From a virus, in IMG/VR virus record IMGVR_UViG_3300043409_002883, positions 1 to 27,284 of that record: a stretch of 27,284 nt of DNA. The stretch is one strand, 5' to 3'. The notes under the pieces are model-generated. The model was given only the letters and a program-made list of their open reading frames with translations, searched no databases and was not told where the DNA came from. Made by a program: the position numbers and the translations under genes. This document shows positions 1,905-25,616 of the stretch, one piece after another (position 1 is the first letter of the stretch; each line of letters begins with the position of its first letter).

Positions 1905-4178
1905 TTATATAACACAACTATCACAGGCGTCAACCGGATCAGTTATCTTGTCCATATTGATCTCGCCCTGGTTATCATTTGTTTGATTGTAGTAGAGTTG
2001 TTTGCCACCCAGCTTGTAAAACATTAGGATATGCTTCAACATCTCACTCATGGGGATCTTTTCCTCAGCATAAAAACGCGGGTTATAACTGGTGTTTACG
2101 CTGATACCCTGGTCTACCCATTTCTGTAACACCGCACAGATGCGCAAATATCCTTCGGGACTGCGTTGATTCCACAATAACTCGTATTTGTTCTTGAGCT
2201 TACGGAACTCTGGAACCACCTGCTTCAGCACACCATGCTTGCTCTGCTTAGTAGTGATCAGACTGCGCACTGGTTCGATACCATTGGTGCTGTTGCTGAC
2301 CTGACTACTGGTTTCACTGGGCATCAGTGCCATCAGCGTGGCATTGCGAATGCCAGTTTTAACCACCTGATTCCTCAGCAGGTCCCAGGGCATTCTCTCG
2401 GTATAGGGTACCAGATCATCCACATCGGATTTGCGAGTATCCACTGGCAACACACCATCAGCATATTTAAGATTTTGCCAGCCAGCGCAGGGCCCAAATT
2501 CCTGGGCCAGTGTTATGCTGGTTTTGATCAGATAATAACTCATGGCTTCCATGTATTCATCCACGGCTGGTAAACAGGTACTGTTGGTATAAGTATACCC
2601 GTTCTTGGCTAGCCAGTAGGCGAAATTGATGATGCCAATACCCAGTGGGCGGTATAAATCAGTGCTGTTTTTGGCCGCTGGTACTGGATAATGCTGGTAT
2701 GTCAGCAGGGCATCCAGACCACGCACTGCCAGTTCACAGGGTTTGGCAAAGTCAGCAGGATCCAGGATCATGCCCCAGTTGATGGCTGACAGGGTACACA
2801 GTGCGATTTCACCATCAGGATCATTGATTTCGTTCAGTGGTTTGGTGGGGAGGTCTATCTCGGCGCACAAATTACTTTGGCGAATAGGAGCAATGTCAGA
2901 CTTAAACGGGCTATGGCTATTGGCATGATCCACATTCTGTAGATAGATGCGGCCAGTATCCTTGCGTTCCTGCGCAAACTGGCTGAACAGATCTGCGGCT
3001 TTGATGGTCTTCTTGCGAATTGCTGGATTGGCCTCAGCAGCTTCATACAATTTAGTGAACTGGTCAGTATCAGCAAAGAAAGCATCATACAGCCCTGGCA
3101 CATCACTGGGACTGAACAATGTGATATTGCCACCACCCAGTAACCGCTCATACATCAGTTTGTTGAATTGCACACCATAATCCATGTGACGAATGCGATT
3201 ATCTTCAGTGCCCTTGTTGTTCTTCAGCACCAGCAGGTCTTCCACTTCCAGGTGCCAGATGGGGTAATACAGTGTAGCACTACCAGATCTTACTCCCCCT
3301 TGGCTACAACTTTTAACCGCACTCTGAAACAATTTGTAGAACGGAATCACACCAGTATGATACGCATCACCACGGCGAATAGGCGAGTTCAACGCACGAA
3401 TCCTACCACCACCGATGCCAATGCCAGCTTTTTGACTTACGTATTTCACAATGGCACTGCTGGTGGCATTGATGCTGTCCAGGCTGTCACCAGTCTCGAT
3501 CAACACGCAACTGCTGAACTGTCGCTGTGGTGTTCTGACTCCAGCCATCACTGGCGTGGGCAGGCTGATCAGGTGAGTGCTAATGGCTTCGTAGTATTCT
3601 TTGACCCAGTGTAGGCGAGTCTCAGCTGGATACTTCTGAAACAAGGTGGCTGCTATGAGAATATAACATACCTGTGGTGTCTCATAAATGCTGCCAGTGA
3701 CACGATTCTGTACCAGGTACTTGCCACGCATCTGCTCCATGCCCGCATAAGTCAGTTCACTGTCACGATCATGGCGGATCATGCTGTTGATCTTATCCCA
3801 TTCGGCATCAGTGTAGGCTGTGGAAATTTCAGTATCATACAGGCCCAGTTCCACATTCTGATCCACCAACCGCTTGATGTGCCAGGGTTCATAGTCACCA
3901 TAGACTTCTTTTCTGAGGTGATAGCTGATCAACCTGCCGGCCACATACTGATAGTTGGGCGAATCTTCACTGATTAAATCCGCAGCACTTTTGATCAGTG
4001 TCTCCTGGATATTGGTGGTCTTGATGCCATCGTAAAATTGCAAGCTGCTGCGGATTTCCACTTCACTAGGGCTCACGCCAGTGATACCTTCACATGCCCA
4101 AAATACCACACGATGCAACTTCTCTAGATCCAACGGCGCTTTTGCGCCCTTGCGTTTGATAACGGTAACTTGACTCAT
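1905..4178 (-). CDS. nrdA: Class Ia ribonucleotide reductase, alpha subunit
   Basis: This 757-aa protein has the full length of the NrdA family and aligns with E. coli NrdA as I recall it. An N-terminal ATP-cone (about residues 5-95) implies allosteric activity control by ATP and dATP. The first redox cysteine is in FSSCVLIETGDSLDSINAT. The active-site loop SNLCAEI and the second redox cysteine in GEIALCTLSA are present. The radical-transfer tyrosine pair is in GGKQLYYNQ. The C-terminal C-D-S-C pair (ACDSCVI) is where glutaredoxin would re-reduce the enzyme. All catalytic residues I can check are intact, so it should be active. The gene follows an unknown 147-aa gene by 3 bp. Phages of this group use it to raise dNTP supply during replication. 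Confidence 0.97.
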   Translation of the reverse strand: MSQVTVIKRKGAKAPLDLEKLHRVVFWACEGITGVSPSEVEIRSSLQFYDGIKTTNIQETLIKSAADLISEDSPNYQYVAGRLISYHLRKEVYGDYEPWHIKRLVDQNVELGLYDTEISTAYTDAEWDKINSMIRHDRDSELTYAGMEQMRGKYLVQNRVTGSIYETPQVCYILIAATLFQKYPAETRLHWVKEYYEAISTHLISLPTPVMAGVRTPQRQFSSCVLIETGDSLDSINATSSAIVKYVSQKAGIGIGGGRIRALNSPIRRGDAYHTGVIPFYKLFQSAVKSCSQGGVRSGSATLYYPIWHLEVEDLLVLKNNKGTEDNRIRHMDYGVQFNKLMYERLLGGGNITLFSPSDVPGLYDAFFADTDQFTKLYEAAEANPAIRKKTIKAADLFSQFAQERKDTGRIYLQNVDHANSHSPFKSDIAPIRQSNLCAEIDLPTKPLNEINDPDGEIALCTLSAINWGMILDPADFAKPCELAVRGLDALLTYQHYPVPAAKNSTDLYRPLGIGIINFAYWLAKNGYTYTNSTCLPAVDEYMEAMSYYLIKTSITLAQEFGPCAGWQNLKYADGVLPVDTRKSDVDDLVPYTERMPWDLLRNQVVKTGIRNATLMALMPSETSSQVSNSTNGIEPVRSLITTKQSKHGVLKQVVPEFRKLKNKYELLWNQRSPEGYLRICAVLQKWVDQGISVNTSYNPRFYAEEKIPMSEMLKHILMFYKLGGKQLYYNQTNDNQGEINMDKITDPVDACDSCVI

Positions 4179-4181
4179 ATG

Positions 4182-4625
4182 TTATTCCAATTTTTTAAAA
4201 TCTTCTGGGTAAAACTTGATGATCTGCTGAGGCTCAGCAGTAACTGACTGGATATTTACCACCTGATGCGGATGGAAATTAAGCACATATTTTCCCTGAT
4301 CCGCCACAGCTATAACCATGCGTTCGCCCACAGTGTTGTATAAGATCCAGATTTCAGGATTTAACTGACGAAATCTGGGCACCATGCACAGGGTGTAAAA
4401 CATGCCCAGTGCTCTGAGATGACCACAGTAACTATGGGTGTCAAACAACGCCCAGGGCGAGGGCCACATGGCCTGATCGTCTGTGAGATTGGTGACTTTC
4501 TTGATAGGAGCGGTGTGCCAGAACTCCTGTATTTCCAGCATGGCTGCTGGGATGTCTTCAGGTAATTGTAATCTCCAGCGACGCCACTCCAGAATGCGTT
4601 TGTCCAGGGGTTGATACCAATTCAT
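4182..4625 (-). CDS. Conserved hypothetical phage protein (147 aa)
   Basis: I do not recognise a function. The protein is Trp-rich: it starts MNWYQPLDKRILEWRRWRLQ and has a central block QAMWPSPWALFDTHSYCGHL, followed by ALGMFYTLCM. The second half looks like beta strands (WILYNTVGERMVIAVADQGKYVL). No signal peptide or membrane segment is evident. Proteins with the same W-P-x-P-W block are, from memory, found as hypotheticals in aquatic T4-like phages. It lies 4 bp after the late gene at 4630-5127 and 3 bp before nrdA, so it is likely part of the same transcript. The ATG has no good ribosome-binding site, which suggests coupling to the upstream gene. Confidence 0.75.
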   Translation of the reverse strand: MNWYQPLDKRILEWRRWRLQLPEDIPAAMLEIQEFWHTAPIKKVTNLTDDQAMWPSPWALFDTHSYCGHLRALGMFYTLCMVPRFRQLNPEIWILYNTVGERMVIAVADQGKYVLNFHPHQVVNIQSVTAEPQQIIKFYPEDFKKLE

Positions 4626-4629
4626 GAGG

Positions 4630-5127
4630 TTAGAGGTAATCTTCTCTCTTGAAATTTATCGTGGCTGCTGCGCCGCTGTTAACATATTTAAACACAATAA
4701 AATTTGTGCTCACTACTGCGGTAACAGTGACGTTGCTGGCGAGTCCCACTTGCCGTGTGGTAATGTTGACCGTGCCACCATTATAAGCAAATATAACCTC
4801 ATTCAACTGATAGTCACTACCACGTCGCACACTGAACTTCAGTACTCCCACTGGGTGGTCAGCCCAGTCAAACTGATAAAAAGGTGTGGCTACTGACACA
4901 CTAGCTGCGAGTGTGGCACTGGAATAGCCATTGTTCAATGGCGTGGCACTGTGCTCAGTGAGCACTTCGGTATTGCCTGCGGCTGGTGCTCCATCACTCA
5001 GTGAGCCATTGCCGATATACAATTGCTGAGTGTCCACCGCCCAGCCCAGCTCACCAGCAGCTAGTTGTGGTAAATTTTCTTTGCGCCCTTTGCGTACCGT
5101 GATCTTACTGATTTGTGTTATAGCCAT
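4630..5127 (-). CDS. Fibre-like structural protein with Mtd_N-type N-terminus
   Basis: This is a 165-aa protein. Residues 8-48 (ITVRKGRKENLPQLAAGELG, then VDTQQLYIGNG) match the pattern R-x-G...L-x-x-G-E-x-G...D-T...GDG/GNG. That pattern occurs at the N-terminus of many phage tail fibres and tropism proteins (Mtd_N-like domain), and in this window also in the genes at 17037-17900 and 19440-20078. The remainder is Ser/Thr/Val-rich and probably beta-structured, ending in NFKREDYL. A late-promoter box at 5148-5155 and an AGGA ribosome-binding site precede the ATG. A virion role is likely. It is isolated between the nuclease gene and the reductase operon rather than in the main fibre cassette. 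Confidence 0.75.
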   Translation of the reverse strand: MAITQISKITVRKGRKENLPQLAAGELGWAVDTQQLYIGNGSLSDGAPAAGNTEVLTEHSATPLNNGYSSATLAASVSVATPFYQFDWADHPVGVLKFSVRRGSDYQLNEVIFAYNGGTVNITTRQVGLASNVTVTAVVSTNFIVFKYVNSGAAATINFKREDYL

Positions 5128-5147
5128 GATGAGTTCCTGTTGTCAGG

Positions 5148-5155
5148 TATTTAGC
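5148..5155 (-). promoter_or_regulatory. Late promoter box GCTAAATA
   Basis: The minus strand reads GCTAAATA followed by CC. It is a variant of the T4 late box TATAAATA that recurs before five genes in this window. It overlaps the stop codon of the nuclease gene and lies 20 bases before the ATG of the fibre-like gene, with an AGGA ribosome-binding site in between. Late transcription in T4-like phages needs the phage sigma factor gp55; no gp55 gene is in this window. Confidence 0.7.
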
Positions 5156-5828
5156 GATAAAAATCGTCGACTCGCTGGATCCATTTTTGAGTATGTGCCT
5201 CAAATTCTGCCCCAGCAATCACCCAGTGCTGTAGTTCATACTCCTGACTGCACATTAGAATTACTCCCTGACTGATATTTGTGCCATAAACCTCATTATG
5301 GGCTAGTGCATAGGCACACAATTGCAGAAAGTAATCCTGAACCCACTCGGTTTTTTTGGGCTTGTTGGTTTGCTTGAAATCCAGTATGCTGACTTCACCT
5401 TGCCAGTTAGCTACACAGTCCGTGGTACCAGCATATAGTCCTGGATAATATAAGCTGACTTCTGTACCGTAGATTTCAGTGACATTGGGAGTTAGAAAGT
5501 TCTCAACGATGCCTGATGCCATTTTATAGCTTTGCTGGCTATAGGGATTGCTGCCAGGTTCGCCCATGGCGTCATCACACATATAATTTTCCAGCCACTT
5601 GTGCATTCTGGTTCCACGACTGGCTGCTTCTGTGGTGATTTGCTGAGCTTGCTGAGCACCCACTCTTTTTCTCCAATTATCCAGTGCTTGTTTGCTTTCT
5701 GCACTCTTGGTGGCTTCCAGAATAGTGGTTACACTGGAGACTCGCTGACCATCAGGCAGAGCGTACTTTCTGCTGCCCTCCAAGGTTTCGCGGCTGAGTT
5801 TCTGATAGGGAAATCTGGGAGTAATCAT
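5151..5828 (-). CDS. PD-(D/E)XK exonuclease, RecB/Cas4/MGME1-like
   Basis: This 225-aa protein has the single-domain RecB-type nuclease motifs in order. They are S-V-T-T-I-L near residues 31-36, R-G-T-x-x-H at 71-76, Glu in GTEVSLY (123), G-T-T-D (134-137), the metal-binding I-L-D-F-K-Q-T (148-154, D150 and K152), and Q-L-C-A-Y-A (169-174, motif with Gln and Tyr). It would cleave single-stranded or flap DNA during recombination, end processing or degradation of host DNA. The ATG lacks a ribosome-binding site and lies about 17 bases from the predicted start of an extended -10 promoter at 5852-5860. That sets it apart from its late-promoter neighbours on both sides. Family placement is firm; the exact substrate is not visible. 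Confidence 0.88.
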   Translation of the reverse strand: MITPRFPYQKLSRETLEGSRKYALPDGQRVSSVTTILEATKSAESKQALDNWRKRVGAQQAQQITTEAASRGTRMHKWLENYMCDDAMGEPGSNPYSQQSYKMASGIVENFLTPNVTEIYGTEVSLYYPGLYAGTTDCVANWQGEVSILDFKQTNKPKKTEWVQDYFLQLCAYALAHNEVYGTNISQGVILMCSQEYELQHWVIAGAEFEAHTQKWIQRVDDFYR

Positions 5829-10291: not shown

Positions 10292-12028
10292 TTATGTTTT
10301 GGTCAGGACCTGCATACTTTGCCAAACCCACACAGCTTGTCCCACATCCCAAATTCGATCCCAGCCAGCGGCCAGCATATTCTGCCATTCAGTACGATCT
10401 GCGGAAAAGTGTTCCAACACTGTGACTAATTTGTGTTTCTGATATTTTACACGATTTTCTAAAGTTTGATAATCCTGAGTGTAGAAGTAGCCCGGCGGAG
10501 TATTTTTCACAAAGGTAAACCCCAGCTTGGCATAAACTTTGCCACTGTTCCAGCGACGATCTGCGTAGCTGATTATTGACACTGGATTCATCTCTTTGAC
10601 GAAACTGGCAAACATGCGGCTGGCTCCACCCACCACCACGGTATTCTGTGAATTACACAATCGCAACATTTCCCATTGATAATTGGAATTATATCTGGCT
10701 TTGCCCCAGGACATGGCTGCCACCACATTATCAGTATGGTCAACCAATCCCCAGCAATAGCTACTATTCACATTGCCTTGAATATGATTTGCTTCGAAAA
10801 ATTCTCTGGACTGCTGGCTAGTTAACCTAACCACACTAGTTTTCCTGGCGGCAACTCTATGCAATGCTTGTCCCACCATGGTGGATATTCGACTTTTTAC
10901 AATGTGATTTTTGCTGTACCATTCACTGTCAAACAAGTGTATCAGTTTGATATCTTGATCAGCACAGGCCACAGTTTTGTTGAGATGATAGGCTGAGTTT
11001 TTTCTGCCTCGATGCTCACTATGCCAGTATATTCCATCACATTCAATCGCTATCTGATGCTGAGGCAAATATATGTCAACTTCTTTTTTCCCAGAGATTT
11101 TTTTGTGGGTTTCCACTTCAATACCCAAACTTCTGAGCCAGTTAACCACTGACCTTTCCCAATCACTCTCCTGTGGAACAGTTAACCCGTGATTTTTCGC
11201 AACTTTGCAAATGTTGGAATATGAAAAATTGTTATGATCAGCTATTTCTCTGAGACTTTGTGATTGCAGTTGTTCCACTAACCAAGCAGGATCAGCCAGA
11301 TTGGTAATAAATTCCAGGGAGAGGTGTTGCTGCTGGAAACTCACTCGGCCAAATTTCGCCAGCATAGTATGCTGTTGTTTGCGAAGAATATCTGGATTTT
11401 GCAATGGTGACTTAACTCCATGACGATCCAGCATAGTCTGGTGAATCTTCTGACGAATCTCACTAGATTCCAACGGAGAATTTGCCCCGTATTTCAATAC
11501 ACAGGTGTCCTGAGTCTTTTCTCTGATTTCCTGAAGTTGTTGCTGAGAATAGTTAGCCCATTTGTCTCGTTGGCCTTGCTGAAACTCTGCAGTCAAGGAA
11601 TAATTTGACACACCATAACGTTGTTGTGTGGTATGAGCAATTTTGTCAACAAACTGCTGCACTTTGCTGGGGTTATCTGCGCCATAGCGTGCCTGGCAGG
11701 TCTGCTGTCGTTTGTGTAATGAATGATTTGCGGCGCACACTGAGCTACAGCATTCACTGTATGATCCAGTGGATAAATGCCACTTTACTGAGTTGAGTCT
11801 GCACTCAGCACACACTGGGACCTGCCAGCATTCATGCTGTATATGCCAACATCTGCGCCGTATGGCTTTACCAGTAATAAATGCAGTGAGTAAGAATATC
11901 TGATCTAATTTATCCACAGCAGCGTGTTCAGTCCACCACGATTGAGTATGGGTACGATGTACCCACTCACCAGCAGGGTCTAATGCATGGGTGATTATAA
12001 ATGTTTTCAGATCGTCAATGCTACTCAT
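10292..12028 (-). CDS. Homing-endonuclease-like protein, Vsr-type (EDxHD-like) nuclease
   Basis: This is a 578-aa multi-domain protein. Order: an N-terminal region with a zinc-ribbon-like C-A-E-C (73-76) and C-C-x-x-x-C (93-98). Five spaced Y/F/H-G-x-x-S/N units follow (YGADNPSK 115, YGVSNYS 138, YGANSPLES 180, HGVKSPLQ 203, FGRVSFQ 226), a type of repeat known from phage homing endonucleases. A helix-turn-helix (QSLREIADHNNFSYSNICKV) follows at 257-276. Next comes a nuclease core with E291 (DWERSV), D318 (KEVDIYLP) and IECDGIYWHSE (328-338), as in Vsr-like EDxHD enzymes such as I-Bth0305I. A C-terminal domain (about 400-525) ends in YADRRWNSGKVYAKLGFTFV and is GNAT-like in pattern. It starts within the last bases of the helicase gene with AAGGA upstream. 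It is free-standing, probably mobile, and cuts DNA at an unknown target. Confidence 0.82.
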   Translation of the reverse strand: MSSIDDLKTFIITHALDPAGEWVHRTHTQSWWTEHAAVDKLDQIFLLTAFITGKAIRRRCWHIQHECWQVPVCAECRLNSVKWHLSTGSYSECCSSVCAANHSLHKRQQTCQARYGADNPSKVQQFVDKIAHTTQQRYGVSNYSLTAEFQQGQRDKWANYSQQQLQEIREKTQDTCVLKYGANSPLESSEIRQKIHQTMLDRHGVKSPLQNPDILRKQQHTMLAKFGRVSFQQQHLSLEFITNLADPAWLVEQLQSQSLREIADHNNFSYSNICKVAKNHGLTVPQESDWERSVVNWLRSLGIEVETHKKISGKKEVDIYLPQHQIAIECDGIYWHSEHRGRKNSAYHLNKTVACADQDIKLIHLFDSEWYSKNHIVKSRISTMVGQALHRVAARKTSVVRLTSQQSREFFEANHIQGNVNSSYCWGLVDHTDNVVAAMSWGKARYNSNYQWEMLRLCNSQNTVVVGGASRMFASFVKEMNPVSIISYADRRWNSGKVYAKLGFTFVKNTPPGYFYTQDYQTLENRVKYQKHKLVTVLEHFSADRTEWQNMLAAGWDRIWDVGQAVWVWQSMQVLTKT

Positions 12029-14710: not shown

Positions 14711-16972
14711 TTACATACGGCCGATCACAGCTTCGATAATCAGTGTACCGCCGTTGTGATTGTTTTCCAAGCTCTTGCCAAGCACACAGCCTGGTACATA
14801 CTGATCAGCAGTCATCACCATGGCCACACCAGCAATATTGCTGCTGGTCAGCAGCGCGCCTTTGGTAACTGGTCCCAGCACACGGCAGGGCACGCGGCCA
14901 GTCAGTGCCACTGGCAGTCCACTGGCTGTGTCATTCATCAGGAACGCTGGCTGTTGGCTGATTACGCCGGCCACTCGGCTGTCATGGCTCACAGTGCTGA
15001 TGGTGATTTCCTGATCACCACCAAATACCACCACGGTGCCGTATTCATACACATCATCGCTGGAATAAATCTCAGCCAAATCGGCGTAGTTAGCGGATGC
15101 TTGGCGTGCATACAGTGTATCAAACCCTTGGCCTACTGCTCCGATGTTGCCAATGCCAGCTGTGCCTCCATTGGCAATAGCTGTGGCTATGTTGGCGGTG
15201 TTTACTGTGAGCGTATTACCCACCATAGCTGTGCTGGTGATCACCGCAGCAACGGCACTGATATTACCCACAGTGGCATTGCCTGTGACACTGAGTGAGC
15301 CCAGTGTACCAACTGATGTAATATTGGTTTGACTTGCTGTGGTTAATGTACCCACAATATTGGTTGCACTGATATTACCCACAGTGGCATTGCCAGTAAC
15401 ACTGAGTGAGCCCAGTGTACCAACTGATGTAATATTGGTTTGACTTGCTGTGGTTAATGTACCCACAATATTGGTTGCACTGATATTACCCACAGTGGCA
15501 TTGCCAGTAACACTGAGTGAGCCCAGTGTACCAACTGATGTAATATTGGTTTGACTTGCTGTGGTTAATGTACCCACAATACTGGTTGCACTGATATTGC
15601 CCACAGTGGCATTGCCAGTAACACTGAGTGAGCCCAATGTACCAACTGATGTGATATTGGTTTGACTTGCTGTGGTTAATGTACCCACAATACTGGTTGC
15701 ACTGATATTACCCACAGCAGCATTGCCAGTAACACTAAGTGAGCCCAGTGTGCCAACTGATGTAATATTGGGTTGACTTGCTGTGGTTAATGTACCCACA
15801 ATACTGGTTGCACTGATATTGCCCACAGTGGCATTGCCAGTAACACTGAGTGAGCCCAGTGTGCCAACTGATGTAATATTGGGCTGTGAGTTACTGGTAA
15901 CTGTGCCTGAAAATGCTGCGTTGAGATTGGCCACCTGAGTGGTGCTGTTGACTATAAAGGGTGCCGTGCCAGCAGTGGCTGTACTGTTGAATATATTGCC
16001 CTTGAATGTGCCATAGCTTCCACTAATGACACCACTGGTTTCAGTGGCCTGATAGTAGTAAGCCAAGCTTTGGCTGGCATTTTCCCAGCCAAAGAACGCT
16101 TGTTGGTCACTACCTTTGTAGTAGTGTACACGAATACCAATATCGCGCCCGTCATCAGTGACCCATGCACCAGTGCCATTGGCCAGATCGTGAAGTTCAA
16201 TAACATTGTCGGTAAAAAATGTGTTGGTTGTTCCTATAATGGTCTGATCACCCGACACTGTGATGTTACCAGTGATGGTGACATTACCAGTTATGATGTG
16301 ACTGGCGGTACTGGTACCAGCATTGAGATTTCCAGTAATACCCACCCCACCTGCAACCGTTAATGCTCCGCTGGTGGTATTAGTACTGACTGTGCTGGCT
16401 GATATCACAGCATTGCCTGCGCCTAAATTACCCACGTTGGCATTGCCACTGACACTTAAAATACCACTGACACTGTTGATATTACCAAATGTAGCATTGG
16501 CTGTGATCACCGCAGCAGCGGCACTGATATTACCCACAGTGGCATTGCCAGTAACACTGAGTGAGCCCAGGGTACCAACTGATGTAATATTGGTTTGACT
16601 AGCTGTGGTTAATGTACCCACAATACTGGTTGCACTGATATTACCCACAGTGGCATTGCCAGTAACACTGAGTGAGCCCAGGGTGCCAACTGATGTAATA
16701 TTGGTTTGACTTGCTGTGGTTAATGTACCCACAATACTGGTTGCACTGATATTACCCACAGTGGCATTGCCTGTGACCGTAATTGCTGTTACATTAGCAT
16801 TGGTAGCACCCAAATTACCCACATTAGCGTTGCCAGTAACACTGATGGTATTACCCACCGTGATGAAGTTGGCATTCACATACCCACTGGTATTGACATT
16901 TCCACTGCTGCCAGTGATGTTGGCATTTCCGATAGTGACCCCGTATTCTATGGTAAAATTCTGTAACGCCAT
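14711..16972 (-). CDS. Tail-fibre or adhesin protein with 37-residue repeats
   Basis: This is a 753-aa protein. The N-terminal part is a Gly/Asn/Thr/Val beta-repeat (GNANITGSSGNVNTSG). The repeat S-L-S-V-T-G-N-A-T-V-G-N-I-S-A-T-S-I-V-G continues to 37 residues; it occurs twice at 63-136 and five times at 374-558, with partial copies after each array. Between the arrays lies a non-repeat domain (about 245-335) containing TDDGRDIGIRVHYYKGSDQQ, a block I recall from cyanophage tail proteins. The C-terminal domain (617-753) has NYADLAEIYSSDDVYEYGTV and AGVISQQPAFLMN. It resembles autocleaving or chaperone-type ends of tail spikes, a tentative match. The repeats suggest a beta-solenoid shaft with the C-terminus as trimeriser or tip. 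Late promoter at 17006-17013; AGGAG before the ATG. Confidence 0.82.
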   Translation of the reverse strand: MALQNFTIEYGVTIGNANITGSSGNVNTSGYVNANFITVGNTISVTGNANVGNLGATNANVTAITVTGNATVGNISATSIVGTLTTASQTNITSVGTLGSLSVTGNATVGNISATSIVGTLTTASQTNITSVGTLGSLSVTGNATVGNISAAAAVITANATFGNINSVSGILSVSGNANVGNLGAGNAVISASTVSTNTTSGALTVAGGVGITGNLNAGTSTASHIITGNVTITGNITVSGDQTIIGTTNTFFTDNVIELHDLANGTGAWVTDDGRDIGIRVHYYKGSDQQAFFGWENASQSLAYYYQATETSGVISGSYGTFKGNIFNSTATAGTAPFIVNSTTQVANLNAAFSGTVTSNSQPNITSVGTLGSLSVTGNATVGNISATSIVGTLTTASQPNITSVGTLGSLSVTGNAAVGNISATSIVGTLTTASQTNITSVGTLGSLSVTGNATVGNISATSIVGTLTTASQTNITSVGTLGSLSVTGNATVGNISATNIVGTLTTASQTNITSVGTLGSLSVTGNATVGNISATNIVGTLTTASQTNITSVGTLGSLSVTGNATVGNISAVAAVITSTAMVGNTLTVNTANIATAIANGGTAGIGNIGAVGQGFDTLYARQASANYADLAEIYSSDDVYEYGTVVVFGGDQEITISTVSHDSRVAGVISQQPAFLMNDTASGLPVALTGRVPCRVLGPVTKGALLTSSNIAGVAMVMTADQYVPGCVLGKSLENNHNGGTLIIEAVIGRM
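15254..15853. repeat. 111-bp direct repeats, array of five plus a partial
   Basis: Five near-identical 111-bp units encode residues 374-558 of the fibre protein; a 45-bp partial copy follows. The units differ by a few bases, mostly silent, plus A for T, N for S and P for T changes. The strong DNA identity suggests recent duplication or gene conversion. Confidence 0.92.
16520..16786. repeat. 111-bp direct repeats, array of two plus a partial
   Basis: Two units of the same 111-bp repeat encode residues 63-136, with a partial copy to 151. They are nearly identical to those at 15254-15853, so recombination between the arrays could delete about 930 bp including the middle domain. Confidence 0.9.
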
Positions 16973-17928: not shown

Positions 17929-18804
17929 CTAAACCACGCCACCACAATCAAATGCTGGTCCACCCACATGGGATATACTAGGGTAACCTCCGTCAAAATT
18001 AATAATTCCAGCCACACCAGGAATTCCCTGTGTGCCCTGAACGCCAGTTGAGCCAGTAGCACCTGACCCCGTGGCTCCAGTTACGCCAATATTTCCCTGA
18101 GTGCCCTGCACGCCAGTTGCGCCAATAGTTCCCTGATATCCCTGCGAGCCCTGAACGCCAGTTGCGCCAAAAGTTCCCTGATTTCCTTGTGTGCCCTGAA
18201 CGCCAGTTGCGCCAATAGTTCCCTGATATCCCTGTGTACCCTGGGAGCCAGTCCAGCCGCGAAATCCCTGAATACCCTGTGATCCCTGAAATCCCTGAAC
18301 ACCAGTTGCACCCCCAAGGCCATCTATACCAGCCGTGCCTGATGCGCCCTGAGCACCCTGAGCTCCCTGAGCACCCTGAGCGCCCTGAGCACCCTGGGTG
18401 CCAATGCCGCCGTTGGTGACCAGTGTCTGCCAGGCTGCTGAGTAATAGATACGCAGTTGACCAGTGCTGTGCTGATACCATAAATCTCCCACAGCCGCAT
18501 CTGTGGGTGCAGTTTCAAAAATTTTAACCGGGACCACTTCCACACCAGCAACACCAGTGGCCACGGTGACTGTTACATTGTTACCGAAATTCAGTGTGGC
18601 TGCTGTGCCCTGTAATGATCCGTTATCCCGAACTTGTACAGCACCAGTGCCACCACCCAGTATGGGTACCCCGCCAGGAGTTATGCCATTGCTGAGTCTG
18701 AGTTCACCAGTGTCAATATCAAAGAAGATATTACCCCGCTCACCAATATACTCAGTGACAGGCGCGGGTACTAGACTGGCTTTGATTTTGCGAAAAAATC
18801 CCAT
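17929..18804 (-). CDS. Collagen-like fibre protein
   Basis: This is a 291-aa protein. Residues 1-130 form a head that includes GERGNIFFDIDTGELRLSNG, another variant of the fibre attachment module, and VGDLWYQHSTGQLRIYY. Residues 132-267 are a continuous G-x-y collagen repeat, dominated by GAQ, GTQ, GVQ and GAT triplets. The C-terminal tail (INFDGGYPSISHVGGPAFDC) resembles short fibre tips I recall from other aquatic phages. The repeat implies a triple-helical stalk in a trimer. Gln-rich triplets in place of hydroxyproline-type ones fit bacterial and viral collagens. It has a late promoter at 18823-18830 and GGAG before the ATG. The DNA of the repeat region contains near-identical blocks of about 40 bp, so length may vary. 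Confidence 0.85.
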   Translation of the reverse strand: MGFFRKIKASLVPAPVTEYIGERGNIFFDIDTGELRLSNGITPGGVPILGGGTGAVQVRDNGSLQGTAATLNFGNNVTVTVATGVAGVEVVPVKIFETAPTDAAVGDLWYQHSTGQLRIYYSAAWQTLVTNGGIGTQGAQGAQGAQGAQGAQGASGTAGIDGLGGATGVQGFQGSQGIQGFRGWTGSQGTQGYQGTIGATGVQGTQGNQGTFGATGVQGSQGYQGTIGATGVQGTQGNIGVTGATGSGATGSTGVQGTQGIPGVAGIINFDGGYPSISHVGGPAFDCGGVV

Positions 18805-19439: not shown

Positions 19440-20078
19440 TTATATTAACTGTTGAGCTACTACAGTGATGTTGGGTGTTGAGCTGGTTCTGGTAAATATT
19501 ACTTGATACATTTTGGCAGAGGTAGTATTAATCAACCAGTATATTGCTGTGTCACCGTTGGTAGACATTGCCGCACTGCCTAGATTTGAAGCAGAGGAGC
19601 CTGCGGTCAAACTCACAGCACCGCTGCTACTGGTGCCACTGAGTATAGCAAGATAACTGCCCAATAATGTTTGACTTATTGACCCAGTTCTTGATACCTG
19701 TGGTATAGTTGAGGCCAAGCTAAATGTCAGAGTGTCAATGACCACATTGCCACTGCTGGGAATACCATTATTAATCTGCCAAATAGCTCCAGTGGCACCT
19801 GTGGCACCAGCGACACCTGTGGCGCCCCTTACGCCTGTGGCACCTATGACGCCAGTGGCACCTGTGGCACCTGCACCAGTGGCACCAGTGACGCCTGTGG
19901 CGCCCATTACGCCTGTGGCACCCACTGGTCCAGGAGATACCAAGTGACCACCCAGTGTGGTGCCGTCATGAAGTCGCAGGCTCCAGGTATCTGTATCCAC
20001 CGCAATCTCACGGGCTGCGCCAGTGAACGCATTGTTTTGACTAGTGGTACCACCGCGTAGTTGTAATCTCTTAGACAT
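19440..20078 (-). CDS. Collagen-like fibre protein with Mtd_N-type N-terminus
   Basis: This is a 212-aa protein. Residues 1-47 carry the attachment-type module: [20 protein letters not shown], then [19 protein letters not shown]. Residues 49-98 are a short collagen repeat made almost only of G-A-T and G-V-x triplets. The C-terminal 110 residues form a globular, Ser/Thr/Gly-rich beta domain ending in [10 protein letters not shown]. The order of anchor, short stalk and tip fits a small trimeric fibre. AGGAG lies nine bases before the ATG. The gene starts one base after the stop of the 173-aa gene and uses its late promoter. Confidence 0.82.
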
Positions 20079-20662: not shown

Positions 20663-21043
20663 TTGAGCCAAAATCTTTTTCAGAAGTTAACAGATAGATA
20701 CCCCTTCATCACAGTGATCGGCTATGGCGATAATGAATACATCGGAATAGTACAGAATCGTGACACTGTGGTAACTAATTTTTACGACCTCGCAGCCATC
20801 ACAGATAGTGATACTCGCCGTCAGTTTTTGGACCTAGGCGAGCAATGGTGGTGGGAAAGTAATAGACAGATCCCCATCAATATTTTTCTCAGAGAGGAAT
20901 GGGGTGTCTTCAGGGTTTATCTCAGAACCTTCAACAGCAAAGATGTTGTAGTATTACATGGTCCTGTGGTCAGCTTGGCCGAATTAGCTCAGAAGAAAAG
21001 TAAACGTCGCAGCATCACACTGATTCGCAAGATCAATCACTGA
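20663..21043 (+). CDS. Conserved hypothetical protein, only plus-strand gene (126 aa)
   Basis: The start is a TTG at 20663-20665; the ATG at 20650 is in another frame and soon hits a stop, and no in-frame ATG occurs early. The protein contains YPFITVIGYGDNEYIGIVQN, then LGEQWWWESNRQIPINIFLR and KDVVVLHGPVVSLAELAQKK. The W-W-W-E-S-N-R block is, from memory, strongly conserved in hypotheticals of T4-like cyanophages and pelagiphages. The C-terminus is basic (KKSKRRSITLIRKI), so nucleic-acid binding is possible. Its stop overlaps the 3' end of the opposite DnaE-like gene by seven bases. Function is unknown; it is transcribed against all its neighbours. Confidence 0.8.
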   Translation: MSQNLFQKLTDRYPFITVIGYGDNEYIGIVQNRDTVVTNFYDLAAITDSDTRRQFLDLGEQWWWESNRQIPINIFLREEWGVFRVYLRTFNSKDVVVLHGPVVSLAELAQKKSKRRSITLIRKINH

Positions 21044-21609
21044 TTCAGCAACACCATGTGAATTGCCACCAAGTACGAATAGGAACAGGCGTGAGCTTTT
21101 TTGAATCCATATTGTCCATCTGTGGATTTGTCCCACACTGTTTTAGCCACTTCAGCCCAGCGTTTTCCAGCCAGATGTCGTTTAGCTGGCCTTATCACTG
21201 CCAGAAACATAGCCAGTCTGGCTAAACTGTCCACCGGCTCTGGCATCCGTTGTAATAAATCCCAGTGAGCGTTGATGTGAACCACTTGCTGAACAAAGCT
21301 GTGATCAGTTAATCTATGCCAGGGCGGCTCAGTGGCCAACAACTGGTCCAGATGTGCTGGACTTTGCACCAGAGTATATACACTGTTGTTGAGAAAATCC
21401 AGCTTGATATAACCCAGTTCTTCAGCCAGCTTGTAATCTAGACTACACAAGCCAGTCAGTGAATCCACTGGCACTGGATTCACATATACACCAGTATTAT
21501 GTCGTACTGGTTTTCCCTCAGGCTGCTGCATCGCAGATGTGTACTGAATCAGATTCAGCGCCTGTGATCTATCAGCAAAATCCAGATCGATATCAAAGTT
21601 TTTGTTCAT
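21037..21609 (-). CDS. Mini DnaE-like protein (Pol III alpha palm remnant)
   Basis: The ATG at 21607-21609 has GGAG nine bases upstream; the open frame continues to 21672 without support. The 190-aa protein matches separate blocks of bacterial DnaE in order, by comparison with E. coli DnaE from memory. FDIDLDF (5-11) fits the catalytic PDFDVDF. RHNTGVYVNP (36-45) fits the NAGKHAGGVVIAP region. LDYKLAEELGYIKLDFLNNS (58-77) fits FDKSDVEYAGLVKFDFLG, with D71 at the third catalytic Asp. LARLAMFLAVIRP (129-141) fits IALVALFRPGP. YGFKKAHACSYSYLVA (167-182) fits YGFNKSHSAAYALVS. PHP, fingers and beta-binding domains are missing, so polymerase activity is unlikely. Probably a domesticated host-derived protein; function unknown. 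Confidence 0.7.
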   Translation of the reverse strand: MNKNFDIDLDFADRSQALNLIQYTSAMQQPEGKPVRHNTGVYVNPVPVDSLTGLCSLDYKLAEELGYIKLDFLNNSVYTLVQSPAHLDQLLATEPPWHRLTDHSFVQQVVHINAHWDLLQRMPEPVDSLARLAMFLAVIRPAKRHLAGKRWAEVAKTVWDKSTDGQYGFKKAHACSYSYLVAIHMVLLNQ

Positions 21610-21695
21610 ATGCAGGACTCCGTAATATGTAATATACCAGTGCGTCTGACAACATCTGTCGCATGCCTGCATCGTGCTGAGCCAGTGGAAGCATA

Positions 21696-22367
21696 TTACA
21701 TCCCCAACTGAGCCATCAGACGCTGGATCTCAACAAACTCAGATTCCTGGTGCAATTTACTTTGCCAGACTTCGGGATTAATCCAGCGATAAATCAGTTG
21801 CTGCTGATCTGGCATCAGCCGGCTCAGCCAGCCAACGCCATCGGCACTTGCGTAAATCAGCCATGCACTGATGCGACCTTTGACAATGTCACTAACAATA
21901 CGGCTGTCTGTGGCATATTTGAAGTAGTGAGCAGCCTCGCTGGTCTGCTGATCTGCCCAGTCGGTTGCTGTGAGCAGACTGCGTTGTACTGCGTCCCATG
22001 CTGGCTCAGTCTGAATCCAACTCAGCATAAACTCTTCGTATACCGAATCTGAACACCAACGATCCAGCGGAGTCTGCTGCTTTAATATGTAATTTATAAA
22101 CTCCTGAGTATTCACACACCGGACATCTATGGTGTACTGTGCAAACTTCTTAAAGGCAATGTAATACCTGCTGCTGGCAAATTCTGCCCAGTCTTTGGGT
22201 TTACTACTTGGTTGAATTCTCTGGTAGAACAGCTGATAAGTCTGCAACGCCAGTTTAACAACCACAGTGTTACGATCATTCCAGCGGCGTCTGGGTTCAC
22301 AGGCATGAGCTACCAGTGAATTTTCTTTCCGAAAACTCTTAGCACAGTGCTCACAAGAAAATGTCAT
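21696..22367 (-). CDS. C2H2-type zinc-finger protein (223 aa)
   Basis: The N-terminus (FSCEHCAKSFRKENSLVAHA, then C) is a classical zinc finger: C-x2-C-x12-H-x-C, so the fourth ligand is Cys in place of His. The basic segment EPRRRW follows. The rest is helical and Trp/Tyr-rich (for example SRYYIAFKKFAQYTIDVRCV and DSVYEEFMLSWIQTEPAWDA). Phages of this type carry, from memory, similar N-terminal finger proteins without known function; DNA binding or a role as regulator or recombination accessory are possible. The ATG overlaps the stop of the 162-aa gene (ATGA), with AGGTGAAG upstream. It precedes the DnaE-like gene by 86 bp. Confidence 0.78.
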   Translation of the reverse strand: MTFSCEHCAKSFRKENSLVAHACEPRRRWNDRNTVVVKLALQTYQLFYQRIQPSSKPKDWAEFASSRYYIAFKKFAQYTIDVRCVNTQEFINYILKQQTPLDRWCSDSVYEEFMLSWIQTEPAWDAVQRSLLTATDWADQQTSEAAHYFKYATDSRIVSDIVKGRISAWLIYASADGVGWLSRLMPDQQQLIYRWINPEVWQSKLHQESEFVEIQRLMAQLGM

Positions 22368-22852
22368 TTTTTTGACTTCACCTCAATACCGTGTTGCTGA
22401 ATCCATTCAGACACCGCCTCAACTGAATTCACGGTCATCCACAGATCAATCTCATCAGACTTCCAAGTAGGACATAAGTCTTGTACCTGTTTGCGCAGAG
22501 CTGATTGATTCTTTTCCACATCAGACTTCTTGGCTGCACCAATCCAATAATGTCGTTGTGAGCCCATGCCAGGACTAACTGTGGTACAGCTCAGCCACTG
22601 TAGTTCTGGATGTTTGCTGAGGTCAAAGAAGTTCTTGTTGACCCGCTCATTAGCAGCCATTAGGTAATAAGCTGCCATGTCAGCATTGCCTTCCACACTG
22701 GCCGCATATCTCAGCATCAGATATGTACTAAACTTCTTTTGCATCTCGGGTTCCATGGCCTGACGAAACTTGCGATCTTTGCGATCCAGCGCACGAAGTT
22801 CATCTGCCAGGACTGGTTTTACTGATGTTGTAGTACTGAGTTTCTTCGCCAT
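22364..22852 (-). CDS. Conserved hypothetical protein (162 aa), possibly clamp-loader-like
   Basis: The protein has LDRKDRKFRQAMEPEMQKKF, then FSTYLMLRYAASVEGN, NERVNKNFFDLSKHPELQWL and PGMGSQRHYWIG. These blocks are familiar from hypotheticals in aquatic T4-like phages. The order of a helical N-part, an F-S-x-x-L-M-x-R segment and a basic G-x-x-R-x-Y/H-W segment recalls the small clamp-loader subunit gp62 of T4. The match is only at the level of pattern, so I do not name it. The C-terminus is charged (GIEVKSKK). It lies 4 bp after the last small paralog and overlaps the zinc-finger gene. Ribosome-binding signals before the ATG are weak. Confidence 0.65.
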   Translation of the reverse strand: MAKKLSTTTSVKPVLADELRALDRKDRKFRQAMEPEMQKKFSTYLMLRYAASVEGNADMAAYYLMAANERVNKNFFDLSKHPELQWLSCTTVSPGMGSQRHYWIGAAKKSDVEKNQSALRKQVQDLCPTWKSDEIDLWMTVNSVEAVSEWIQQHGIEVKSKK

Positions 22853-22856
22853 GTCT

Positions 22857-23138
22857 CTATATTATATAACCTCCGTGGGAGATATCGCCACGTTTGACCT
22901 GATATGCTGCCAGACGTAATAATTCAAACTCGTTTAAGCAATATTGCCAATGCCCAGAGCCTTGAAACGTGCCGTCTGGGGAAATTTCAATACGACGGAA
23001 AATCTTCTCACACCAGACCCAATACCCCCAGCGAGATGCGGAATCTGGATTGGGCACAAACACTGGATGCCAAGCCCACCATGCGTGCCAGTTCTGGGAA
23101 TGTTGGGTATTATGATCCAGGTTTATTATCCCAACCAT
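22857..23138 (-). CDS. Small Trp-rich protein, paralog 3 of a tandem trio
   Basis: This 93-aa protein shares with the two genes upstream a common plan: S/N-x-W-H...W-x-P, a V-W-x-x-x-F/V-x-R-R segment (WVWCEKIFRR, 41-50), then W-x-Y-C-x-x-E-F/L-E-L-L (HWQYCLNEFELLRLAA, 63-78). The start shown overlaps the preceding gene by 29 bases, the only Met available; no good ribosome-binding site is seen, so coupling is likely. The N-terminal WHAWWAWHPVFVPNPDS is the richest in Trp. No known function; proteins with this W-rich plan are familiar from T4-like marine phages. Soluble, no signal peptide. Confidence 0.7.
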   Translation of the reverse strand: MVGIINLDHNTQHSQNWHAWWAWHPVFVPNPDSASRWGYWVWCEKIFRRIEISPDGTFQGSGHWQYCLNEFELLRLAAYQVKRGDISHGGYII

Positions 23139-23406
23139 TGAGGCCTATATAACGTGGTTTGCTGGGTTGGCTTGAACGTTTTAGCATTTCAAACTCATCA
23201 GTACAGTATTCCCATCTGTGATCCGTGATGATGAAGTCTCTTACTACTGCTCGACGAAACACTGTTTGAAACCATGCCCAGGTACGCATACCGTCTTGGT
23301 TAGATATGTCCTCGGGTAGCCACAGAAACTTTTTATGCCATTCACTGACTCGCGTCAAATACTCTTTACGCCGAGTTTCTTTGCTTTTAACTGTCCAGAT
23401 CATCAT
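23110..23406 (-). CDS. Small Trp-rich protein, paralog 2 of a tandem trio
   Basis: This is a 98-aa protein. The same plan is visible: SEWHKKFLWLPEDISN, RTWAWFQTVFRRAVVRDF and HRWEYCTDEFEMLKRSSQ. It has an added basic N-terminus (KSKETRRKEYL) compared with the other two. Two adjacent ATG codons at the start have GGA upstream. It overlaps the previous paralog by 20 bases and the next by 29. The divergence between paralogs is high apart from the R-R and W-x-Y-C positions, so the duplication is old. Function unknown. Confidence 0.72.
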   Translation of the reverse strand: MMIWTVKSKETRRKEYLTRVSEWHKKFLWLPEDISNQDGMRTWAWFQTVFRRAVVRDFIITDHRWEYCTDEFEMLKRSSQPSKPRYIGLNGWDNKPGS

Positions 23407-23632
23407 CTGTTTCCATATGTTTCCAGGTTTGTGTTAGTAATTCCCGCAGATCCAAGCAATATTCCCAGCCCTGTATTTGAGGGACTCTACCAGAGCCCAG
23501 TCCCAGTATTGCTCTGCGATATACAATCTTTAGCCAGACTCGGGTGGTTTTACCACTGCGAGTAAAGTGTAGTGGTTTCCACGTAAACACTGGATGCCAC
23601 TGAGACGCCTGCCTGAGTTGATTTGTGTTCAT
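23387..23632 (-). CDS. Small Trp-rich protein, paralog 1 of a tandem trio
   Basis: This is an 81-aa protein with ASQWHPVFTWKPLHFTRSGK, RVWLKIVYRRAILG and GWEYCLDLRELLTQTWKH, matching the two genes downstream. WHPVF is shared exactly with paralog 3. It starts 1 bp past the stop of the 166-aa gene, with GGTGAT upstream, and ends in an acidic tail (ETDDDLDS). No enzymatic motif is seen. The conserved Cys, Arg pair and Trp suggest a shared fold and binding function, perhaps a family of small regulators or host-interaction proteins; this is a guess. Confidence 0.72.
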   Translation of the reverse strand: MNTNQLRQASQWHPVFTWKPLHFTRSGKTTRVWLKIVYRRAILGLGSGRVPQIQGWEYCLDLRELLTQTWKHMETDDDLDS

Positions 23633-23633
23633 A

Positions 23634-24134
23634 TCACCAAGCCCGACTGTATTTCACTAGTTCGCTGCTGCGGCTAATATCTTTCACGAAATACACACAC
23701 ATGGGCTTGTCACCAGAACTCAGTGGCACACACAGCATCTGCCCATTCTTCATCTTGGGGAAGAACCAGCGATTCTCAGTGAATACATCCAGTATTTCCA
23801 CTGGCAAAAACTCAGGCCTGAAGCTGCTGAGTGGATTAAAACCAAAGGCCTTGAACCCACGATCATTGATGCTGGTCAGTGGCACTACTTCCAGGTCACC
23901 GTGATCAGGTTCACCGATCAGCAGTTGCCAGTCCACTGGCATAGTGATCTGCTGGTCGCCAATTTTTAATACCAGTGCTGGGCTCATGAAGCTCTCCAGG
24001 AAAATCAGTGGTACAAAGTAGTAGTCAGATTCCACAGGGTCTGAATTGTCAAACACACAAAACCTGAGGTCATCTACTTCTTCGGGAAGGTTCACTATGT
24101 CAAAGCTACGGTTGTCGTTCGTTAAGATTCTCAT
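23634..24134 (-). CDS. Conserved hypothetical phage protein (166 aa)
   Basis: The protein has blocks that I recall as conserved in T4-like marine phages: FVPLIFLESFMSPALVLKIG (40-59), MPVDWQLLIGEPDHGDLEVV, SINDRGFKAFGFNPLSSFRP, and CVYFVKDISRSSELVKYSRAW at the C-terminus. The pattern is alternating beta strands, compact and without membrane segments. Function is unknown. It lies between the UvsW-like helicase and the small paralogs. GGAG is nine bases before the ATG. A TGTTATACT element (24148-24156) in the 27-bp gap could be a local promoter, but a start there would fall at or past the ribosome-binding site. Confidence 0.75.
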   Translation of the reverse strand: MRILTNDNRSFDIVNLPEEVDDLRFCVFDNSDPVESDYYFVPLIFLESFMSPALVLKIGDQQITMPVDWQLLIGEPDHGDLEVVPLTSINDRGFKAFGFNPLSSFRPEFLPVEILDVFTENRWFFPKMKNGQMLCVPLSSGDKPMCVYFVKDISRSSELVKYSRAW

Positions 24135-24161: not shown

Positions 24162-25616
24162 TTAGGGCCAGACGACCTTTGTGGTAGTATGAGGGTACTC
24201 AGCTTCAGAATAGAACTTCTTGCGCTGAAGCAGGTGCCGTTTGCTGAACTTCATGGTTGAAGTAATGTCCCAGATGTTGACAAAGTCTTTATCGCTGGCT
24301 CGTCTAAGACCGCGACCAATGCTCTGAATGGTTCTAACAAAACTTTTGCCAGGCTCAATCAGTACCACATTGAACAATCTGGGAATATCAATACCCACTG
24401 CTGCCACACCATAAGTTGCCACAGTTATTCGTCCATCACTAGTGGCCATCTGGTCATATTCAGACTTGCGGTCTTTCAACTTGTCCTTGCCGCTGATAAA
24501 CACTGCATCTGGTAATGCCACGCAGATATGGGCACCAGCACTGAGCCGGTCCACCAGCACCAGGGTATTGCCAGACTGAGATATCTTATCAATCATGCCA
24601 GCGATATGTGTCATGCGGTCAGCATTGTCCACTAGATATCTCAGCTCATCCTGGTAGTTTTTGTATTCACCATGATCCAGTAACTGCTGGATGTTAATGT
24701 GACAGTTGCTGAGAATGCCCAGTTCCTGCAAGTCCACCGCAGCCAATCTAGCTATAACTGGGCCCACACTGACCAATAGGCTCAGCATATCGTGTTCAGC
24801 TTTGGGCACGGTACCAGTGAGTCCCCATCTGATGGGTATACGGCTCATAACTCCTGTGAGTAATGTGGTCAGAACTTCTGATTTTACCTGGTGACATTCG
24901 TCATTGATTACTGCTACCACACCATCTAGGAATTCAGCGATGCTCACTTGTGCGGAATCAGTATGAGTATTCTTCAGCAGAACATTCAGACTTTGCCAGG
25001 TACAGATTGTGTGTGTCTTGCCCAGATCTTTACGATCACCAAACCAAACACCCACATCCATCCCCAGCAACTTGTAGTCTCGTTCGGTTTGTACCACCAG
25101 ACTCTTGTTGGGCACAATCACGATGGTCCTACCATGTGGCTCACACCTATGACTCAATGCCGTGGCAACCATCGTTTTGCCTGCGCCTGTTGCTACTTCT
25201 TGTAGACTCTGGGGATTCTGTAAGAACTGGTTCACCACAGAGACCTGGTGGTCTCTGAGCATAATGGGCTGGCCTGCTGCGAGGTGTTCTGGTGGCCACA
25301 TGCAATGAGCAAAGCTGTCAGCATTAACCGACTCAAACTCAAAGTGAGTCTGATAATCTCGCTGATCCACTAGATCAATGTCATAGCCAGCAGCTTCAAT
25401 AAGGGGCAGGATTTCTGGTAACAGATTCACATAGGTTGCGCCAGCTAAGCTGACAAAGGCTTTCTTGCCATCCCATCTACCCAGTCTGACTGCTGGCATA
25501 TACCTGGCACCTGGTATCTCTTTTTTAAACTGGTTACATAGACGCCGCCTAAAAGCTGCATCCAAACCCTCCAGTTTACAATTGACTTCGTCGAGAACGG
25601 TTATAGTGCATGTCAT
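24162..25616 (-). CDS. uvsW: UvsW-type superfamily 2 DNA helicase
   Basis: This 484-aa protein has the SF2 helicase motifs in order: RDHQ (121-124), Walker A ATGAGKT (142-148), DECH (239-242), GLTGT (265-269), and in the second RecA domain SATSDGRITVATYGVAAVGI-type and QSIGRGLRR motifs. The N-terminal 95 residues form the small domain typical of T4 UvsW (AVRLGRWDGKKAFVSLAGAT). UvsW unwinds branched DNA and R-loops and moves T4-type phages from origin- to recombination-dependent replication. Length and layout match. The ATG overlaps the stop of the 382-aa gene by four bases (ATGA). It shares the sigma70-like promoter at 26779-26808. No uvsW.1 or other recombination genes are visible next to it. 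Confidence 0.92.
   Translation of the reverse strand: MTCTITVLDEVNCKLEGLDAAFRRRLCNQFKKEIPGARYMPAVRLGRWDGKKAFVSLAGATYVNLLPEILPLIEAAGYDIDLVDQRDYQTHFEFESVNADSFAHCMWPPEHLAAGQPIMLRDHQVSVVNQFLQNPQSLQEVATGAGKTMVATALSHRCEPHGRTIVIVPNKSLVVQTERDYKLLGMDVGVWFGDRKDLGKTHTICTWQSLNVLLKNTHTDSAQVSIAEFLDGVVAVINDECHQVKSEVLTTLLTGVMSRIPIRWGLTGTVPKAEHDMLSLLVSVGPVIARLAAVDLQELGILSNCHINIQQLLDHGEYKNYQDELRYLVDNADRMTHIAGMIDKISQSGNTLVLVDRLSAGAHICVALPDAVFISGKDKLKDRKSEYDQMATSDGRITVATYGVAAVGIDIPRLFNVVLIEPGKSFVRTIQSIGRGLRRASDKDFVNIWDITSTMKFSKRHLLQRKKFYSEAEYPHTTTKVVWP

Follow-up and report, generated by a model that had tools for sequence, protein, structure and literature searches.

The phage protein groups closest to the proteins analysed in this work are PHROG 14828, 18133, and 10835, which have no assigned function. 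They are separate small groups with the same Trp-rich core. The proteins analysed are P81, P98, and P93 (Table 1), which are encoded side by side in a virus record of 27,284 bases, the whole of which is referred to as the window. P81 matches PHROG 18133 at an E-value of 1.1e-4, and no match of P98 or P93 to that group is listed at E up to 1. PHROG 14828 is matched by P81 (E 1.5e-3), P93 (E 0.062), and P98 (E 0.14). Other members of the wide family described below match all three groups, and the family profile built in this work unites them.

By structure, the closest entries are four phage proteins in BFVD (A0A6J5M6Z5, A0A6J5KUE5, A0A516LGV9, and G3KB13) that are matched with a Foldseek probability of 1.00 and 20–30% identity over 54–75 columns. 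Their E-values are just 0.0056–0.036 and no function is attached to them. The PC4-like fold (human PC4 and the T5 homolog, 4bg7) resembles the models in having a helix after a small antiparallel sheet. P81 aligns to it with Z-scores of 3.6–4.0 over 59–63 residues and an rmsd of about 5.2–5.4 Å, which is level with unrelated folds, and P93 with a Z-score of 2.1. In contrast to PC4-like proteins, the trio has no Pfam match and many members of its family stop after the last strand, so that the PC4-like fold with its C-terminal helix is not a family trait. AcrIIA22 is described as a PC4-like anti-CRISPR of 54 amino acids that is found in hypervariable loci of phage or bacterial origin (PMC8545432). 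AcrIIA22 as described there and the trio are both small beta-sheet proteins (predicted for the trio). The likeness is an analogy only, with no sequence or structure match behind it.

Homology and divergence of the three paralogs

The trio is transcribed in the order P81, P98, and P93, all on the minus strand. P81 and P98 overlap by 20 nt, and P98 and P93 by 29 nt. The spacing between p166 and P81 is 1 nt and that between P93 and p162 is 4 nt. The start of P98 may be the second ATG because its counterpart in the related contig L005 begins with MIWT, and the overlap of P81 and P98 would then be 17 nt. The balance of Lys and Arg over Asp and Glu is +3 for P81, +5 for P98, and -1 for P93, and none of the three is strongly basic.

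Table 1. Coordinates of the cassette, its flanking genes, and other features of the window.
Feature	Position	Strand	Evidence
P81, first gene of the trio (81 aa)	23387..23632	-	ORF list and homology
P98, middle gene of the trio (98 aa)	23110..23406	-	ORF list and homology
P93, last gene of the trio (93 aa)	22857..23138	-	ORF list and homology
p166, marker gene between two slots	23634..24134	-	phrog_11279 (no assigned function), E 2e-49
UvsW-type helicase, upstream of the cassette	24162..25616	-	phrog_16 DNA helicase, E 7e-71
p162, closes the slot downstream	22364..22852	-	phrog_11758 (no assigned function), E 2e-14
p223, next conserved gene	21696..22367	-	phrog_11058 (no assigned function), E 1e-53
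211-aa ORF	21037..21672		phrog_11778 'DNA polymerase', E 6e-53
Collagen-like ORFs	17929..18804 and 19440..20078		Gly repeats
111-bp repeat arrays	15255..15882 and 16521..16771		96–98% match
753-aa ORF	14711..16972	-	tail-fibre-like in appearance
578-aa ORF	10292..12028		homing-endonuclease-like (impression from sequence)

The first-pass annotation had described three tandem, overlapping, Trp-rich paralogs, and the ORFs, their overlaps, the shuffled comparisons, and the profile all agree with it. P98 and P93 exhibit 29% and 27% identity to P81, respectively. Their alignment has 14 invariant columns that include W12, H13, W18, P20, W33, R39, R40, W56, Y58, C59, E64, and L66. The Smith-Waterman scores of the three pairs are 93, 72, and 96, and the means of shuffled sequences are about 26–28. 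Scores no better than those of shuffled sequences had been named as an outcome that would speak against common descent; the real score was reached by none of the 10,000 shuffles in each of the six directions.

A profile search with the aligned trio had been proposed at that stage; a profile of related sequences picks up all three proteins. This profile comprises 63 sequences of the family from other phages, with no member of the clade of the window. Searched against 869 real frames and as many reversed ones, it recovers exactly the 11 paralogs of the clade (from the window, L005, L009, and L051) at E-values of 1e-6 to 2e-15. The next match is at E 0.17, and none of the 869 reversed frames is below E 1. 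The E-values of the trio are 1.6e-14 (P93), 1.5e-9 (P81), and 1.3e-8 (P98). As judged from alignment and profile, P81, P98, and P93 are genuine diverged homologous duplicates.

The duplication also appears old and kept as a set, as had been claimed, because a separate counterpart of every one of the three is present in L005 and the group of L009 also has three copies. The family tree is mostly weak, with 5 of its 30 inner branches starred, and one-to-one orthology with the copies of L009 and L051 is left unfixed.

The dN/dS ratios relative to L005 are 0.13 for P81, 0.5 for P98, and 0.5 for P93, compared with 0.03 for UvsW; p166 exhibits no protein change. P98 is 61% identical to its L005 counterpart, which has 104 aa. 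Relative to the otherwise near-identical contig L004, P98 has nine nonsynonymous changes and no synonymous changes. P98 accounts for 297 of 3253 nt and holds 9 of 15 differences (P = 1.3e-6). A 7.5-kb block has 31 mismatches compared with L004, and 12 of them fall in the 500-nt bin of P98 (P = 3e-7, for bins picked after the data had been seen). P98 is a local hot spot of divergence. Recombination with a diverged relative possibly explains this clustering as well as fast evolution does. Positive selection in P98 was set aside since 0 synonymous changes among nine has a probability of 0.13 under neutrality. Adenine-directed diversification (DGR) was also considered; by eye, five of the nine changes are at A on the coding strand of the window.

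A wide family of Trp-rich phage proteins

The family to which the trio belongs is, on pattern and profile matches, far broader than the trio that the first-pass annotation described. Its consensus is W-x2-W-F-A-W-x-P-V ... W-V-W-L-E-x-V-x-R-R ... W-x-Y. Two WFAW/WVWL patterns retrieved 44 and 74 viral stretches, which represent 102 distinct loci on about 100 viral contigs, and the iterated profile matches 143 of the 144 collected sources (redundant copies included). The positions conserved in the family, in P81 numbering, are W12, F16, A17 (Thr in P81), W18, P20, W33, V37, R39, W56, and Y58; conservation at the positions of the search patterns is partly by construction, and R39, W56, and Y58 are outside them. 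In the family alignment of 75 sequences, W18 and P20 are invariant, the R39 position is Arg or Lys in 70 rows, and aromatic residues occupy positions 56 and 58 in 97% and 93% of the rows that reach them. P81, P98, and P93 all carry the core of W18, P20, W33, R39, and the aromatic residues at 56 and 58.

Among named phages, Achromobacter phage Motura (profile E 2e-15) and Arthrobacter phage Qui (profile E 5e-13) are members of the family. Weak matches of single queries were found in further Arthrobacter, Mycobacterium, Rhodococcus, and Rhizobium phages, where the proteins are annotated as hypothetical. The tblastn search of P93 against named phages gave matches at E 1 or worse only, including Motura, which is backed by the profile. 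The only tblastn match of P81 among named phages, Curvibacter phage TJ1, was rejected as a relative (E 9; best profile frame of TJ1 at E 2.4).

At E up to 1, no Pfam family was matched by the trio, and ten other family members had no match either. NCBIfam gave no match for the trio, and the PADLOC models, which are of defence and not of anti-defence, gave none. The PDB sequence search with the family profile (A3) gave none at E up to 10. The literature search found no publication on the WFAW/WVWL family among the papers listed. The first pattern was found on 4 contigs in 84,980 bacterial and archaeal genomes compared with 44 viral stretches. The profile confirms two of these contigs (L149 and L150) and not the other two (L148 and L151), and L149, which is equal in length to the viral contig L055, looks like the same contig or prophage. 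The family is apparently broad and phage-specific, and these matches would join at least three PHROG groups without annotation into one.

Tandem arrays of family members are also found elsewhere, with four copies in L036, two in L069, and at least two in L051. L036 is an unrelated viral contig of 97 kb, and its four members are tandem and partly overlapping at 3944–5184. The neighbours of other members include genes of UvsX, Sak4, DnaB, polymerase, and primase. Neighbour genes were greedy ORF picks, and 59 of 116 same-strand neighbours were scanned, which are the ORFs with a length of about 160 aa or more except L036:5929–6930 and L089:6771–7265. Pfam families of replication or recombination were found in at least 15–17 of these 59 neighbours, compared with at least about 9–11 of 85 farther ORFs. 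The lean of the neighbours to DNA replication and recombination is modest.

The cassette in its replication cluster

The genes of the cluster are in the order uvsW–p166–slot–p162–p223, and the trio occupies the slot. p166 is present in 61 phage records and at least 80 viral contigs. Relatives of the window were found through p166, and the best 80 of 594 were compared. In these 80 loci, the order uvsW–p166–p162–p223 holds in every contig as far as it extends over the four genes, and p162 follows p166 in 79. The clade is of the jumbo type because relatives with the kept order include contigs of 338–354 kb. The gap on one side of p166 is 3 to 2260 nt (36 of 73 measured are above 150 nt), and that on the other side is 6 to 2461 nt (59 of 79 measured are above 150 nt). 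The slots that flank p166 in the 80 loci hold 140 heterogeneous cargo ORFs in 25 groups, which, judged by reading, include methyltransferase-, SGNH-, and sulfotransferase-like ORFs.

None of the p166 slots in these best 80 of 594 relatives has a family member, and none was found around p166 of the jumbo phages Phosso, PA5oct, Atu_ph07, and slurp01. In related contigs, the copy number in this area is two or three. Three family copies follow p166 in the window, L004, and L005; L009 and five sister contigs have two before p166 and one after. In L051, at least two copies come immediately after uvsW, at the end of the contig. The trio thus has an accessory location and is patchy in relatives, which is no more than suggestive of a host-takeover or counter-defence protein. 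The trio is accessory, swappable cargo in a variable slot of a replication and recombination cluster. Since the cassette is such cargo, its adjacency to UvsW speaks only weakly for a role in recombination, and since the slot cargo elsewhere is as diverse as listed above, the adjacency says little on function.

Other features were observed in the window. The 211-aa ORF is probably a short DnaE-like gene, and Phosso likewise annotates a small DnaE-like gene nearby. The start of p223 has a C2H2-like zinc-finger stretch that is just under the Pfam cut-off (21.3 compared with 22.6 bits). The 111-bp (37-codon) repeat is present in about 5.7 and 2.3 tandem copies, and both arrays are inside the 753-aa ORF. 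In the collagen-like ORFs, the bins 18001–18500 and 19501–20000 have 19 and 22 mismatches compared with contig G001. The 578-aa ORF lies beside a DnaB-like helicase.

Predicted fold and possible functions

The structures of P81 and P93 were modelled with AlphaFold2 using the 75 aligned sequences. The P81 model has a pLDDT of 88.5 and a pTM of 0.70, and the P93 model has a pLDDT of 80.8 and a pTM of 0.66. Both models exhibit the same order of elements, which is a short helix, five strands, and a helix. Different folds would have spoken against the paralogs, and for these two of the three the predictions agree. The first-pass annotation also held that the trio shares little beyond its motifs. 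Given the low identity, this is almost accurate; the predicted fold and the motif of the C-terminal helix (E-L/M-L) are common to them in addition.

The Foldseek search of PDB structures gave no convincing chain (E above 2). VIA-align gave Z-scores up to 4.1 for P81, with COMMD, PC4, Pur-alpha, and the T5 PC4 homolog, and COMMD proteins are on top of one list. For P93, Z-scores are up to 3.9, with PARP zinc fingers in the lead and RuvA lower. The weak matches of both models are mostly nucleic-acid-binding domains, with scores at chance level. The PARP fingers were not taken as homologs since they head the list of P93 and are absent from that of P81. A zinc finger in the trio was also rejected since only one His and one Cys are shared and this Cys does not hold across the family.

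We tentatively propose that the trio represents diverged tandem copies of a phage-specific domain in an accessory cassette, that an aromatic and arginine-bearing sheet would bind nucleic acid, and that the set would be a non-essential helper. The part on the family and the cassette is very probable; the nucleic-acid-binding step is rather doubtful. The lean of neighbouring genes to replication and recombination gives the proposal modest support. The chance-level structural scores, the family members that lack the C-terminal helix, the diverse slot cargo of relatives, and the charge balance of the trio speak against it. The three copies would make up one overlapping operon in the variable slot, and each is predicted to fold into a small antiparallel beta meander with a short helix at the N terminus and a further helix at the C terminus. 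The conserved Trp, Phe, Tyr, and Arg residues of the sheet may form a binding surface. In the models, this sheet suggests binding of nucleic acid or of another conserved ligand, and the ligand would most likely be nucleic acid or a complex of nucleic acid and protein. Variable loops that differ among the paralogs may tune specificity, and the set may help in takeover or replication.

Host takeover or counter-defence, in which the paralogs would each bind and inhibit a host protein of their own and together extend the range of hosts or defences overcome, is considered just as tentatively and is an equally good reading as a nucleic-acid ligand. The accessory slot, the small size of the proteins, the recurrent tandem arrays in other phages, and the clustered changes of P98 argue for it, as does the faster protein evolution of P98 and P93 than of their neighbours, and the phage restriction of the family is compatible with it. 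The motif is nevertheless preserved across widely differing phages (Arthrobacter and Achromobacter by profile, and more weakly Mycobacterium), which points to a common ligand rather than to private targets. No defence-linked neighbour is found among the matches listed, and the changes in P98 do not amount to positive selection. A shared type of ligand with diversified edges is favoured because the most conserved residues are common to the trio and unrelated phages; distinct targets for each paralog are speculation.

It is unlikely that the paralogs are structural or regulatory subunits of recombination that form a heteromer with UvsW or neighbouring proteins. They share one operon with UvsW and p166, their tight overlaps suggest coupled translation, and the wider family occurs near genes of replication and recombination; the trio is nevertheless absent from all of the 80 related loci despite the kept gene order, and the four named jumbo phages have no family member around p166. 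That the copies arose by duplication of a mobile ORFan and are neutral or in decay is highly improbable. Rapid divergence and the tolerated change in the length of P98 are consistent with such decay, but none of the three ORFs is broken in L004 or L005, where all are conserved, their dN/dS ratios are below 1 (0.13–0.5), and the motif residues are kept. The trio and its family could also be an unrecognised superfamily with a minimal Trp/Arg beta-sheet nucleic-acid module that would be amplified into diversified sets for DNA-directed counter-defence, by analogy with AcrIIA22-type proteins, with the middle copy diversifying fastest, which we regard as very unlikely.

If the domain proposed here binds nucleic acid or blocks defence, many phage genes that are annotated as hypothetical could become annotatable at once. 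The trio is well suited to testing this, with three natural variants in one operon and close relatives that lack them.
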